Shown here: piece by piece, positions 37,209 to 50,031 of the stretch
How the letters are laid out: each line of letters begins with the position of its first letter
How positions within the stretch are numbered: the first letter of the stretch is position 1
NCBI RefSeq assembly: GCF_003367905.1
Contig: NZ_CP029462.1
Coordinates: forward strand, 1,550,001-1,614,000
Length of the DNA stretch: 64,000 bases
Origin: Megasphaera stantonii
GTDB taxonomy: Bacteria; Bacillota; Negativicutes; Veillonellales; Megasphaeraceae
Reading direction: 5' to 3'
Translations under genes and position numbers: made by a program
The notes under the pieces: generated by a model
The model's input: the letters and a program-made list of their open reading frames with translations, nothing else
Databases searched by the model: none
What the model was told of the DNA's origin: nothing

Positions 37209-38308
37209 CGGCGAATTTACAATACAAGTGCAACACCTATAAAAAATGACACATAGGTTTCTGATATAATAATGCTACCAAACAAAATCTATATCTCGGA
37301 GGAAACCTATGTGCCACTATCATCATCTTACTCTATCTGAACGAGAAAATCTACTCTTTTTTCGCGCGCAGTCCTATTCTATCTCTCGAATTGCGGCGGC
37401 CCTCGGCCGAGATAAATCCACGATCTCACGGGAACTACGCAGAAATACAGTGAACGGCAAGTATCTGCCCATCACCGCACAACAACAGTATGCCCGCCGC
37501 CGTAAGGCATGCAAGCCTCACAAGCGGTTAGAGAATGCCGAGCTATTCGCATTGGTTAAAAATCTCTTCCTGGTGCATCATTGGTCCCCAGAAGAAATTG
37601 CCGGACGCTTGCAGCTGGAACATCAGAAGGCACTCCTTAGCTATGCAACGATTTACCGCGCCATATATGCCGGTATGTTTGATGAAACGTCGTCCTCCCA
37701 TGGGTCCCGCGGTGCGGTCCGCCGCTTGCGGCATCATGGAAAATCCCGGCATACCCGGCAATATCAGGAACGACGGGGTTCTATTCCCATCTCTCACGAT
37801 ATTTCGGAACGGCCAGCAGGAGCCGCTAACCGCTCCCGGCGAGGACATTGGGAATGTGATACCATAGCAGGAAAGACAGGAAAAGCCTGTCTGGTTACGT
37901 TGGTAGATAGAAAGAGCCGGTATCTGGTAGGAGGCAAAGCAGCCAAAAAGACAGCACAAGCCGTCAATACGGTATTGCTTCAGGTACTGCAAGGGCAACC
38001 TGTAAAAAGCCTTACGCCGGACAGAGGAAAAGAGTTCGCCCATCATGCCGCTGTCACGGAGGCCTTGAACGGCGTGCCGTTTTATTTCCCGCCGCCGCAT
38101 CAGCCCTGGCAGCGGGGAAGCAACGAAAATACCAATGGCCTAGTCCGAGAGTATTTCCCGAAAGGGACGGACATCACACTCGTTCCAGAAGCCTATGTGC
38201 AAGCTGTTTTTGCAGAACTAAATCGCCGTCCCCGAAAATGTTTAGGATACAAAACGCCATACGAAGTACATTACTCTAAAAAGTTGCACTTAGCTTGACA
38301 ATTCGCCG
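37209..38308. mobile_element. IS30-family insertion sequence
   Basis: A complete-looking element of about 1,100 bp. Terminal 26-bp inverted repeats match at 21 of 26 positions (37209-37234 and the complement of 38283-38308; conserved blocks CGGCGAATT, CAA and AAGTGCAAC). It holds a single intact transposase gene. No clear target-site duplication is visible. The right repeat overlaps the last codons of the neighbouring LysR gene. Confidence 0.75.
37309..38298 (+). CDS. IS30-family transposase
   Basis: Transposase (329 aa) with an N-terminal HTH ('SISRIAAALGRDKSTISRELRRNT') and a C-terminal DDE catalytic core. Probable catalytic residues lie in 'WECDTIAG', 'TPDRGKEFA' and 'SNENTNG'. CGGAGG precedes the ATG. 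The frame is intact, so the element may be active. The stop overlaps, on the other strand, the stop of the adjacent LysR gene. Confidence 0.93.
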   Translation: MCHYHHLTLSERENLLFFRAQSYSISRIAAALGRDKSTISRELRRNTVNGKYLPITAQQQYARRRKACKPHKRLENAELFALVKNLFLVHHWSPEEIAGRLQLEHQKALLSYATIYRAIYAGMFDETSSSHGSRGAVRRLRHHGKSRHTRQYQERRGSIPISHDISERPAGAANRSRRGHWECDTIAGKTGKACLVTLVDRKSRYLVGGKAAKKTAQAVNTVLLQVLQGQPVKSLTPDRGKEFAHHAAVTEALNGVPFYFPPPHQPWQRGSNENTNGLVREYFPKGTDITLVPEAYVQAVFAELNRRPRKCLGYKTPYEVHYSKKLHLA

Positions 38309-39431: not shown

Positions 39432-40607
39432 ATGACGACGGTACGTTGGATCATGCACGTCGATATGGACGCGTTTTACGCGTCTATCGAGCAGCGGGAC
39501 AATCCGGCCCTGCAGGGGATGCCGGTCATCGTCGGCGGACTGACGGGGCGCGGCGTCGTCGCGACGGCGTCGTACGAGGCGCGGCAGTTCGGCGTGCATT
39601 CGGCTATGAGCATGAAGCTGGCCCGCAGGCTGTGCCCGAACGGCGTGTTCCTGCCGGTGCGCATGTCCCATTACCGGCGTATTTCCCACCAGATTCGGCT
39701 CATCCTGTCCCATTACTCGCCCTTCGTAGAGCCCCTGGCGCTGGATGAAGCTTTTCTGGATGTGTCGGGCATGGGACTGAAATATCCGAACATCGTCGAC
39801 ATCGCCAAGGCGGTCAAGCAGGATATCCGGCGGACGACGGGCCTCGTCGCCTCGGCCGGCATCGGGCCGAATAAGTTTTTGGCCAAGCTGGCGTCGGATT
39901 TGAAAAAGCCCGATGGACTGATGTGGATTCCCTACGGCGAGGAACGGGCCATCCTGGCGCCCCTGCCGGTGAGCCGCCTGTGGGGCGTCGGCAAGGTGAC
40001 GGAGCAGGCCCTGCGGCGGGCTGGATTTCATACCATCGGCGACGTTGCCGATGCCGGCCCGGAGGCGCTGATGCCCATTGTCGGCAATCAGGCTCATCGG
40101 CTGCACGACCTGGCGTTAGGCAAGGACAACCGGCCCCTGGAGGTCAGTCGCCGTCCCCAATCTGTCGGCAACGAGCATACCTACGCCCACGATTTGGTCA
40201 GCGACGACGAAGTGGACGAGCAGTTCCGCCTGCTGGCCAACGAGGTGTCGTGGCGGCTGCGGCAGAATCATCTGATGGGGCGGACGATTACGATCAAAGT
40301 GCGCTTCGCCTCGTTCCGCACCATTACGCGGTCCCTGACGATCGACGGCATGGGGACCTGCTCGGAAGAGCAGCTGTATTTCTCGGCCAAGCGGCTGTAC
40401 AATAAATGTAGCGGTGCAGAGCCTATCCGGCTGCTGGGATTGTCCGTCAGCCAGCTGCAGCCCCTGCAGGTACAGTGCGATTTATTTTCCGACGATTCGG
40501 AAACGAAGGCCAAGGTAGCCGAGGCCATCGACAAGCTGCAGAAGCGGTTTGGCCGCCAGGCTATCATGAAGGGATTTTTATGGGAAATGTCTCATGAAAA
40601 AGACTAA
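39432..40607 (+). CDS. dinB: DNA polymerase IV
   Basis: Y-family error-prone polymerase (391 aa) for translesion synthesis. Catalytic carboxylates are in 'HVDMDAFYASIE' (near residue 10) and 'LALDEAFLD' (near 105). The helix-hairpin-helix part 'SAGIGPNKFLAKLASDLKKP' and the little-finger domain are present. AAAGGAGG precedes the ATG. No clear LexA box of the Bacillus type was seen upstream. The N-terminal numbering matches the family. Confidence 0.94.
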   Translation: MTTVRWIMHVDMDAFYASIEQRDNPALQGMPVIVGGLTGRGVVATASYEARQFGVHSAMSMKLARRLCPNGVFLPVRMSHYRRISHQIRLILSHYSPFVEPLALDEAFLDVSGMGLKYPNIVDIAKAVKQDIRRTTGLVASAGIGPNKFLAKLASDLKKPDGLMWIPYGEERAILAPLPVSRLWGVGKVTEQALRRAGFHTIGDVADAGPEALMPIVGNQAHRLHDLALGKDNRPLEVSRRPQSVGNEHTYAHDLVSDDEVDEQFRLLANEVSWRLRQNHLMGRTITIKVRFASFRTITRSLTIDGMGTCSEEQLYFSAKRLYNKCSGAEPIRLLGLSVSQLQPLQVQCDLFSDDSETKAKVAEAIDKLQKRFGRQAIMKGFLWEMSHEKD

Positions 40608-40640
40608 AGCACCATATACTATAAACGAGGAGTGTATATC

Positions 40641-40931
40641 ATGGCGATTTTTAAAGTAGCAGCCCATACGGGAGACAACAACAACGGATACATCGAATAC
40701 GATACGGAAACGAAGGAGCTGGGCGTCCATCTGAACGACGAAGACATCAATGCCAAGGTCCGGGAGTACTTGACGACGGAACGGCCCCTGCACCGTTTTA
40801 CGGATTTGTCGTACTACGAAACGGTCAGCGTCGTGCCGACGGACGACGTAGAGTCGCTGAAATTAGCCTTGTGCTATATCTGGCTGGCTCTGGGTGTCCA
40901 CGTCGACTGGAGCCGCCCTGTCGAAGGGTAA
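40641..40931 (+). CDS. small hypothetical protein
   Basis: Unrecognised acidic protein (96 aa) starting 'MAIFKVAAHTGDNN'. It has no signal peptide or membrane helix. GAGGAG lies 8 nt before the ATG at 40641. It begins 33 nt after dinB and may be co-transcribed with it. It lies just upstream of the DnaA-box cluster. Confidence 0.65.
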   Translation: MAIFKVAAHTGDNNNGYIEYDTETKELGVHLNDEDINAKVREYLTTERPLHRFTDLSYYETVSVVPTDDVESLKLALCYIWLALGVHVDWSRPVEG

Positions 40932-40954
40932 GGCGAAACGAGAGGGAAAACGAC

Positions 40955-41308
40955 ATGTCCACAAGATATCCACATTCTGTGCCCTGCGGTGTGGCTAGAA
41001 TGTGGATGTTTTTTGCAAACGGCGAAAATACGCCGTCCGCGGCGGTGCATAACTTGGCGGATGAAGCGGGCAAAATGTGTATAACTGGACGCCAGGCTAT
41101 GAAAACAAGCGTTTGCGTTAACATAAAAACCGCATAGCTGCGCCGTTTTCAGAAATTTGTAAAGACTTGTTTACAATGTGCATAACTGACGATGAATTGT
41201 GGATAATTTTTACGCACAGCCTGTGGATATCTGAAGGGAAGAGAAAATATCAGGTAAATACAGGCTGTGCGGGAATTTTCTTGCTGTGAAATTTTCCAGT
41301 TATCCACA
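40955..41308. promoter_or_regulatory. cluster of DnaA-box-like 9-mers
   Basis: Two perfect DnaA boxes (TTATCCACA at 41300-41308; its complement TGTGGATAA at 41198-41206) and several near matches. These are ATATCCACA at 40966-40974, TGTGTATAA at 41076-41084, TGTGCATAA at 41177-41185 and TGTGGATAT at 41222-41230, with weaker ones at 40955-40963 and 41001-41009. An 11-bp inverted repeat (GCACAGCCTGT 41214-41224 with ACAGGCTGTGC 41260-41270) lies among them. The ~420-bp gap holds no gene. It could be an origin element or a DnaA-titration or regulatory site. Confidence 0.6.
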
Positions 41309-41349
41309 ATGTGTGCAGTGAATTTGATATGTAGGAGTGGAGTAGACAA

Positions 41350-42504
41350 ATGAAAGCGATTATTGACGGATTACTCGTATTGTCTAATGAAATCGTAACG
41401 GGACATATTCTGATGTATGAAAAGGACATATGGAAAATCGTACCGCGGCACCAGTTCCGCGCCGGCATGTGCACGGAATTGATTGACGCCAACGGCGGCT
41501 TTGTCGTGCCGGGCTTTATTAACGAGCACATCCACGGCTGCGCCGGCGCCGACGTGATGGACGAAGACGGGCAGGCCTTGGAAACGATGCGGAAGGCCCT
41601 GCCGGCTACGGGCGTCACGTCCTTTGTGGCGACGACTATGACCCAGTCGAAGGAAGCGATGGCCGGGGCGCTGGAACGCATTCGCCAGGCCATGGGCAAG
41701 CAGGGCGGCGCCCAGGTTCTCGGCGCCCATCTGGAAGGACCCTTCGTGAGCGAAGCCTATAAGGGGGCCCAGGCGGCGGGACACCTCGCCGCTCCCGATT
41801 TTTCCTGGATTGCGCCCTATGCTGACGTCGTGAAGATCGTCACCGTAGCGCCGGAAGTATTGAAGAACAAAGACTTTTTGAAGGATTGCCGGGACCATCA
41901 GATTCTCGTGTCGCTGGGACACAGCGCGGCGACGTATGAAGAGGTCATGGAAATCGTCGACGCCGGCGGACTGTGCCATGCGACGCACCTGTACAACGCC
42001 ATGGCTCCCTTCCACCATCGGCAGCCCGGCCTTGTCGGCGCGGCCCTGCTGTCGCCGAAGGTACACTGCGAGTTGATCTGCGACAACCTGCATGTCCATC
42101 CGGCGGCGCAGAAGCTGGCTTATCAGCTGAAAGGCCGCGACGGCATTATTCTCGTAACCGATTCGATGCGGGCCTGCCTGCAGGGCGACGGCGAATCGGA
42201 ATTGGGCGGCCAGGCCGTATACGTCAAGGATGGACAGGCTCGTTTGGCCGACGGTACGCTGGCCGGAAGCACAGCCGTCATGAATCAGGTCGTGCTCAAC
42301 TTCCTCATCAACAGCGGCGCGTCCCTGCCCGACGTCGTGGCCATGGCTTCAGCTAATCCGGCAAAGGACTTGGGCCTGTACGACCGCCTGGGCTCGCTGG
42401 AAGAAGGAAAGCAGGCCGACGTCGTCGTATTGGACAGCAACGATTTCCACGTGAAGCAGACGGTCATCGCCGGCGAGCTTGTGTATGATGAATTGGCAAA
42501 ATAG
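41350..42504 (+). CDS. nagA: N-acetylglucosamine-6-phosphate deacetylase
   Basis: Amidohydrolase (384 aa) converting N-acetylglucosamine-6-phosphate to glucosamine-6-phosphate. Metal-site histidines are in 'NEHIHGCAG' and 'SLGHSAATYEE...CHATHLYNAM', and the catalytic Asp is in 'VTDSM'. It is coupled to a GH3 enzyme whose gene overlaps its end, suggesting cell-wall amino-sugar recycling or chitin/GlcNAc use. The start has GGAG about 9 nt upstream. Confidence 0.92.
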   Translation: MKAIIDGLLVLSNEIVTGHILMYEKDIWKIVPRHQFRAGMCTELIDANGGFVVPGFINEHIHGCAGADVMDEDGQALETMRKALPATGVTSFVATTMTQSKEAMAGALERIRQAMGKQGGAQVLGAHLEGPFVSEAYKGAQAAGHLAAPDFSWIAPYADVVKIVTVAPEVLKNKDFLKDCRDHQILVSLGHSAATYEEVMEIVDAGGLCHATHLYNAMAPFHHRQPGLVGAALLSPKVHCELICDNLHVHPAAQKLAYQLKGRDGIILVTDSMRACLQGDGESELGGQAVYVKDGQARLADGTLAGSTAVMNQVVLNFLINSGASLPDVVAMASANPAKDLGLYDRLGSLEEGKQADVVVLDSNDFHVKQTVIAGELVYDELAK

Positions 42505-48561: not shown

Positions 48562-50031
48562 TTGAGTGAAATGGCTATGTTTTTTGGCGAGTCTCGGTAC
48601 ATAGAATATAAGCGGGAAGTTCCGAAAGATAGTTTAAAATACATGAAATCTGTTGTAGCGTTTGCTAATGGTGACGGCGGACAAATTATCTTTGGCGTTG
48701 AGGATAATACCGAAAAGGTTATTGGTGTACCTGCCGAGACCTTATTTCAAACGATGGATGCGTTGACGAATGCCGTAACGGATAGTTGTGAACCCATGAT
48801 TATACCTAATATAATGGTTAGAGAAATAGATGAAAAGCAAATTATTATCATGGAGATAATGCCGGGAATGGAACGGCCATATTTTATTAAAAGCAAAGGA
48901 ATGATTAACGGTACCTATATCAGGACTGCTGGAACGACTCGTCCTGCCGATCAAGTTATACTGCAAGAGCTAATTTTAGAAGGCCGTAATAAATTTTTTG
49001 ATCAGGAACCTGTTTGGCATGGAATGGTTGCCGACTATGAAATTGATGCATTATGCCGGCAGTTGTATGAGATTGCGTTAAAAAATGCTAAAACGGCAGA
49101 ACAAAGACAGGCTGTAAAAAGAGTTACAAAGAATACGCTGTTGTCTTGGGGCGTATTAGCGGAACGGCAGCATATGGTGCTGCCGACGAATGCATATTCC
49201 ATGCTGACGAATACGAACGGTTTGCCGCCGCTTATCCAATGCGCCGTCTTTAAAACGGAAAACAGAGCTATATTTGTAGATCGCAGGGAAATAACCGGGA
49301 CAGTACAGGAGCAAATAGAAAAGGCGCTGCAATATGTGCTGGAAAAAATAAATATGGGTGCCCGATTTCACGGCATCTATCGAGAAGATGTGTATGAATT
49401 GCCGCCAGATAGTCTAAGAGAATTAATTGCGAATGCAGTAGTACATCGAAGTTATTTAGAACCAGCTCCCATACAAATTGCCTTATTTGCCAATCGACTG
49501 GAGATTACATCTCCTGGTGGTTTGATGCGCGGCGTGACCGTGGCAAAAATGAAAGAAGGCTTTTCGAAGATTAGAAATAGAGCTTTAGCAAGCGCTTTTG
49601 CTTACATGAATATCATTGAGCAATGGGGAAGTGGTATTCCTAGAATTATGCATGAGTGCCAAGAGTATGGGCTTCCAGAATTGGAAATTATAGACTTAGA
49701 CGGAGATATGCGAGTTAATTTATATAGGTGTACCAAGGCGAAGACTGACCAAAAGACTGACCAAAAGACTGACCAAAAGACTGACCAAAAGACTGACCAA
49801 AAGACTGACCAAAAGACTGAAAGCAACCCTATACTAACAGACAATGAAGCGGCTATTTGGCAAATATTGCTGCAAAAACCAAGTTGTACGCAGAAGGAAA
49901 TGGCCGGGATCCTGCGATGGAAGCCGGGAAAAATTAAATACCATATCCGCAATTTGCAGGCAAAAGGCCGAATCATACGAGTTGGGTCCCATAGGAAGGG
50001 ATATTGGCAGCTCGTTCAGCCAGAAAAATGA
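48562..50031 (+). CDS. AlbA_2/HATPase-type ATP-binding transcriptional regulator with KTDQ repeats
   Basis: Protein of 489 aa with an N-terminal AlbA_2 (Schlafen-type) domain ('ESRYIEYKREVP', 'ANGDGGQIIFGV'). A central HATPase_c_4-like domain has 'ELIANAVVHRSY' and 'QWGSGIPRI', and a C-terminal winged helix follows. Between the last two lie six tandem KTDQ units from residue 394 on, encoded by a 12-nt DNA repeat. The TTG start is supported by GAGGAGG 8 nt upstream. It is clearly AT-rich compared with the flanks, suggesting acquisition. Members of this group are annotated as DNA-binding regulators; a defence role is only a possibility. Confidence 0.75.
   Translation: MSEMAMFFGESRYIEYKREVPKDSLKYMKSVVAFANGDGGQIIFGVEDNTEKVIGVPAETLFQTMDALTNAVTDSCEPMIIPNIMVREIDEKQIIIMEIMPGMERPYFIKSKGMINGTYIRTAGTTRPADQVILQELILEGRNKFFDQEPVWHGMVADYEIDALCRQLYEIALKNAKTAEQRQAVKRVTKNTLLSWGVLAERQHMVLPTNAYSMLTNTNGLPPLIQCAVFKTENRAIFVDRREITGTVQEQIEKALQYVLEKINMGARFHGIYREDVYELPPDSLRELIANAVVHRSYLEPAPIQIALFANRLEITSPGGLMRGVTVAKMKEGFSKIRNRALASAFAYMNIIEQWGSGIPRIMHECQEYGLPELEIIDLDGDMRVNLYRCTKAKTDQKTDQKTDQKTDQKTDQKTDQKTESNPILTDNEAAIWQILLQKPSCTQKEMAGILRWKPGKIKYHIRNLQAKGRIIRVGSHRKGYWQLVQPEK
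49741..49820 (+). repeat. 12-nt tandem repeat (KTDQ codons)
   Basis: AAGACTGACCAA occurs six times in perfect tandem, with a partial seventh copy. The 12-nt unit keeps frame, so copy-number change would only lengthen the linker. Confidence 0.95.

Follow-up and report, generated by a model that had tools for sequence, protein, structure and literature searches.

The analysed stretch of DNA (the window) is 64,000 nucleotides long and covers positions 1550001 to 1614000 of a Megasphaera genome made up of one contig of 2,652,760 bp. The named close relatives are also Megasphaera, and the two families of our search that are relevant here, f1 and f4, are presumably Megasphaeraceae and Veillonellaceae, an assignment based on labelled relatives and on general knowledge of the order. 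The locus comprises dinB, which encodes DNA polymerase IV, a small gene encoding a 97-residue protein, an intergenic gap containing an array of DnaA boxes, and a nagA-like amidohydrolase gene (Table 1). The gene for the 97-residue protein is located directly 3' of dinB in all 17 Megasphaeraceae loci, in 12 of the 13 loci of the Veillonellaceae genus g5, and in most of the Veillonellaceae loci examined. Beyond Megasphaeraceae, it was detected in f4, and the two remaining families of the sample gave no match. The protein had no informative match in Pfam or NCBIfam, and its AlphaFold model (pLDDT of 82) had no fold match in the PDB. Its invariant residues comprise HT, G, and, close to the C-terminus, DWSR. 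In one relative, G003, a change of frame divides the small gene into two matched pieces, yet the downstream array is retained. Two other features of the window were recorded. An open reading frame at positions 37309–38298 (+) resembles a transposase of the IS30 family, inserted near the dinB locus. A perfect 12-bp tandem repeat (6.7 copies, positions 49741–49820, KTDQ in the protein) falls inside an open reading frame (48562–50031, +) resembling an AlbA-type transcriptional regulator, and may provide a linker of variable length.

Table 1. Features of the dinB locus and of the downstream DnaA-box array (window coordinates).
Feature	Position	Strand	Remarks
dinB (DNA polymerase IV)	39432..40607	+	First gene of the upstream pair; Pfam IMS, IMS_HHH, IMS_C
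Gene for 97-residue protein	40638..40931	+	Array anchor; in 17/17 genomes of the family and 44/61 of the order
Intrinsic-terminator-like hairpin	40951..41024	+	Formed from R1/R2, then T run; RNA fold, repeat I1
Inverted repeat I1	40951..40978 / 40997..41024		
DnaA-box array	40966..41308	.	6 boxes with at most one mismatch
Box R1, ATATCCACA	40966..40974	+	One mismatch; left arm of hairpin
Box R2, ACATCCACA	41001..41009	-	Right arm of hairpin; placed by alignment; degenerate here, one-mismatch box in nearest relatives
Box R3, TTATACACA	41076..41084	-	One mismatch
Box R4a, TTATGCACA	41177..41185	-	One mismatch; always TTAT(A/G)CACA in relatives keeping R4a
Box R4b, TTATCCACA	41198..41206	-	Perfect; 21 bp from R4a, 122 bp from R3
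Imperfect 22-bp inverted repeat	41213..41234 / 41250..41271		
Additional box, ATATCCACA	41222..41230	-	One mismatch; within the 22-bp inverted repeat
Box R5, TTATCCACA	41300..41308	+	Perfect
nagA-like amidohydrolase	41350..42504	+	Next gene; Pfam Amidohydro_1; absent there in some relatives

An earlier note on this DNA had described two perfect and at least four one-mismatch boxes in about 350 bp, an 11-bp inverted repeat, the absence of any gene, and a density too high for chance. This description was accurate in each respect. Two perfect TTATCCACA boxes and exactly four boxes with one mismatch are present within 343 bp, an exact 11-bp pair is contained in the imperfect 22-bp inverted repeat, and no conserved gene was found in the gap, the listed open reading frames being antisense or running into coding sequence. 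The six boxes compare with 0.15 expected and a maximum of two in 3000 dinucleotide shuffles of the gap, which is richer in AT than the genome. The whole genome was scanned for TTATCCACA and TTATNCACA, whereas GC skew and clusters of one-mismatch boxes were determined in 884 kb of samples taken around the chromosome. At least three TTATNCACA sequences per 400 bp were found only at oriC and at the array, and at least four one-mismatch boxes per 400 bp only in the two halves of oriC and in the array. The locus is thus a chromosomal cluster of DnaA boxes outside oriC, with a density far above chance. The sole other tight pair of TTATNCACA sequences outside oriC and the array is an isolated one at genome positions 2105310–2105329, composed of TTATCCACA and TTATTCACA located 11 bp apart on one strand. 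An Rfam scan of the locus returned only implausible matches below threshold and no known RNA element.

The first two boxes form the arms of a hairpin with a predicted RNA folding energy of -27.2 kcal/mol in the window. The R1/R2 hairpin is found in 13 of the 17 Megasphaeraceae (-12.9 to -32.0 kcal/mol), with four or more T among the ten bases that follow it. A simple terminator scan did not list it. In most Megasphaeraceae, the hairpin has the appearance of an intrinsic terminator serving the dinB operon. Speculatively, transcription read-through and occupancy by DnaA could influence each other at this site.

In all 17 Megasphaeraceae genomes, 4 to 11 boxes are located immediately downstream from the gene for the 97-residue protein. 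In total, 118 boxes were counted in 17 segments of 480 nucleotides, whereas the reversed motif gave four and permuted motifs averaged 3.0. A blastn search of the gap against relatives returned a single 66-bp match, located over the hairpin, and conservation was therefore demonstrated from the positions of the boxes. The common layout comprises R1 (+), R2 (-) 23–37 bp further on, R3 (-) at about 75 bp from the latter, R4 (-) about 121–125 bp after R3, and R5 (+) about 95–122 bp after R4, providing the recurring order + - - - +. The strongest departures from this layout are found in G005 and G008. The spacing between R3 and R4b is 121–125 bp in most Megasphaeraceae, and R4a, where kept, is TTATACACA or TTATGCACA and lies 21 bp from R4b. 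In an alignment of nine Megasphaera gaps, identity reached 83% in the box columns versus 53% elsewhere, the intervening DNA having diverged. A two-box pattern with the R3–R4b spacing had one match in its own genome, at the array. Across the order, matches of this pattern outside the array were obtained in the Veillonellaceae genus g7, those checked corresponding to the rpmH–dnaA origin. When these matches were followed up, arrays were uncovered next to the small gene in g7, g11, and g13.

In these three genera, arrays within the same range of 4 to 11 boxes were present directly downstream from the gene pair in the 12 assessable genomes (56 boxes versus two for the reversed control), a count that leaves out two g11 loci ending too soon to be judged. 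The array is accordingly kept in 29 genomes of two families, 17 Megasphaeraceae and 12 Veillonellaceae. In genus g5, the dinB/small-gene pair is kept and the array is absent, with zero or one box at each locus and five boxes in the 13 loci versus five for the control. This sister genus thus provides an internal negative for the box counts, and its lack of an array counts against the function proposed below. The common ancestor of the two families probably already had the array, which would then have disappeared from g5; gain on separate occasions is possible and offers a less simple account. Where both loci are on one contig, the array lies 11–192 kb from dnaA (about 166, 192, 107, 52, and 114 kb in G002, G004, G008, G009, and G014, respectively, about 18 kb in G055, 37 kb in G042, and 11–12 kb in g11), and the unit is always directed away from dnaA, i.e. 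in the direction of the replication fork, on either arm. Since the operon is still located 87–118 kb from dnaA in three array-less g5 genomes, position near oriC is not an independent proof of function. It is the dinB neighbourhood as such that lies near oriC, in part by inheritance, which weakens the argument from a conserved distance.

Clustering by chance in AT-rich DNA between genes, or the presence of a repeat, might be invoked on the grounds that the boxes are short and that TTATNCACA is hardly enriched genome-wide (52 occurrences versus 41 for the reversed control); this explanation is refuted by the shuffles, the permuted-motif controls, and the conservation in 29 genomes, and deserves practically no credence. 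That the array is an origin of replication, be it secondary, former, or split, is also very improbable. In favour of this reading, the array has a number of boxes similar to that of one half of oriC and lies in DNA that is AT-rich relative to the genome, and the earlier note had envisaged an origin element separated or displaced from dnaA. However, dnaA maps at about 1.442–1.443 Mb, 148 kb from the array, with a full bipartite set of boxes and DnaA-trios. Gene order at that site is rpmH, boxes, dnaA, boxes, dnaN, recF, and gyrB. This bipartite oriC (rpmH–dnaA and dnaA–dnaN gaps, genome positions 1.4414–1.4436 Mb) resembles that of B. subtilis and carries a trio tract in the dnaA–dnaN gap. The end of the latter gap, TTTTCCACACTATCCACACCCTCTACTACTACTTCTTCTACT, combines boxes with a C-rich spacer and a tract of DnaA-trios, which is the standard unwinding module. 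A trio tract was found in none of the 17 Megasphaeraceae arrays, and there was no close match near the array. Negative values of GC skew extend to about 1.43 Mb and give way to positive ones from about 1.44 Mb on. The sign thus changes at about 1.434–1.442 Mb, beside dnaA, and not at the cluster, around 1.59 Mb, throughout which the skew is positive. In addition, the layout of the boxes at oriC is unlike that of the array, and the only replication gene adjoining the array is dinB. The origin reading was rejected on the basis of the position of dnaA, the GC skew, and the DnaA-trios.

DnaA is a known transcription factor, nagA is the next gene after the array in the window, and the R1/R2 hairpin with its T run resembles a terminator of the dinB operon in most Megasphaeraceae. 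The array could therefore serve DnaA-dependent transcription control of a neighbour, acting on nagA or on termination of the dinB operon. We regard this role as unlikely because the array persists while the downstream gene differs and because at least four boxes over 340 bp are more than a terminator needs. The nagA gene follows the array in the window and in close relatives, but not in seven Megasphaeraceae (G003, G004, G008, G009, G014, G015, and G016), in three of which a SAM riboswitch occupies that position; a tRNA, read from the sequence, follows the array in some Veillonellaceae. Given this variation, the array cannot have been conserved for the sake of regulating any one particular gene downstream. 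Likewise, the array goes with the small gene and not with nagA, which rules out its being a nagA promoter. In G005, the open reading frame after the array begins like nagA and then diverges strongly, and the genome is devoid of a good NagA match; nagA is possibly decaying or repurposed in this relative. A more elaborate and rather improbable scheme is a transcription-gated initiator sink. With boxes that also serve as the dinB-operon terminator, DnaA occupancy and read-through from the translesion-polymerase operon would control each other, linking DNA-damage tolerance to initiation, with the 97-residue protein possibly acting as a DnaA regulator.

The main rival to titration is a catalytic action of the DARS or datA type, in which a specific DnaA oligomer would exchange ADP for ATP or trigger ATP hydrolysis. 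The fixed spacings (121–125 bp between R3 and R4b, 21 bp between R4a and R4b) and the conserved non-consensus R4a suggest a defined oligomer in place of loose titration, and the first boxes overlap a terminator, as does box 1 of datA (PMC10950094). On the other hand, datA needs IHF (PMC5742627), and the genome contains only one gene of the HU/IHF family, and hence no two-subunit IHF. Furthermore, the array boxes taken as a whole are of mixed orientation, in possible contrast with the essential boxes of datA, which all point one way. A strict IHF-dependent datA mechanism is unlikely here, although a homodimeric substitute for IHF is possible, and catalytic action as a whole appears doubtful. 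Titration, ATP hydrolysis, and nucleotide exchange are indistinguishable by sequence. Because the single HU/IHF-family gene makes the strict datA mechanism unlikely, we prefer titration of the type attributed to the DnaA-box clusters (DBCs) of B. subtilis. Of the earlier proposal of a titration site similar to datA or DARS, the titration component fits with retention of the array in 29 genomes, whereas membership in the datA class proper is doubtful in view of the single HU/IHF-family gene.

We therefore propose that the array is probably an extra-origin DnaA-binding locus of the DBC type, restraining initiation by sequestering DnaA. Both the binding of DnaA to the boxes and its effect on initiation are inferred, and binding is predicted because the boxes match those present at the organism's own oriC. 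According to this model, DnaA would bind the boxes of the array cooperatively. The array, being close to oriC, would be copied soon after initiation, and its two copies would then sequester DnaA, leaving less of the free protein and preventing premature re-initiation. The array may also alter the nucleotide state of DnaA. Our literature search retrieved no paper on the control of initiation in the Veillonellales group and, within the literature searched, the extra-origin DnaA-box array of Veillonellales was previously undescribed.

Clusters of DnaA boxes located outside the origin restrain initiation in B. subtilis, Streptomyces coelicolor, and E. coli (PMC5295017; PMC5742627), and the B. subtilis clusters, as historically also datA, have been credited with absorbing DnaA after initiation (PMC5295017; PMC5742627). 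As cited in a review, the S. coelicolor cluster comprises boxes outside oriC that repress initiation (Smulczyk-Krawczyszyn et al., 2006, cited in PMC5742627). It shares the location of its boxes outside oriC with the array, but belongs to a different phylum. DARS1 and DARS2 of E. coli are likewise non-coding, lie at a distance from oriC, and contain several DnaA boxes; they are distinguished by a three-box core and, for DARS2, by IHF and Fis sites. The datA locus is, as the array, a non-coding DnaA-box cluster near oriC. Its activity requires IHF and drives hydrolysis of DnaA-ATP, with essential boxes in one direction (PMC5742627), as compared to an overall + - - - + order in the Megasphaeraceae arrays. 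Box 1 of datA shares sequence with the terminator of the tRNA operon located upstream, and read-through modulates datA activity (PMC10950094). This parallels the location of the first array boxes in the putative dinB terminator, the upstream unit being dinB in one case and a tRNA operon in the other. Understanding of non-origin DnaA-binding sites comes mainly from E. coli, the importance of the six clusters of B. subtilis being disputed because of their redundancy. A single dense array at one locus in two families of diderm Firmicutes, with a probable loss from one sister genus, lends itself to a cleaner natural test of selection on initiator titration. The closest counterparts include the B. 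subtilis DBCs, in which, as in the array, DnaA boxes are clustered apart from a bipartite oriC in a member of the Bacillota. They are described in reviews as oriC-proximal, deletion of all six leading to early initiation (Okumura et al., 2012, cited in PMC5295017 and PMC13220808). As far as these reviews allow the comparison, B. subtilis relies on six redundant clusters whereas one dense cluster was found besides oriC in Megasphaera, and the array differs from the DBCs in being tied to one gene pair, kept in two families, and combined with a terminator-like hairpin in most Megasphaeraceae.
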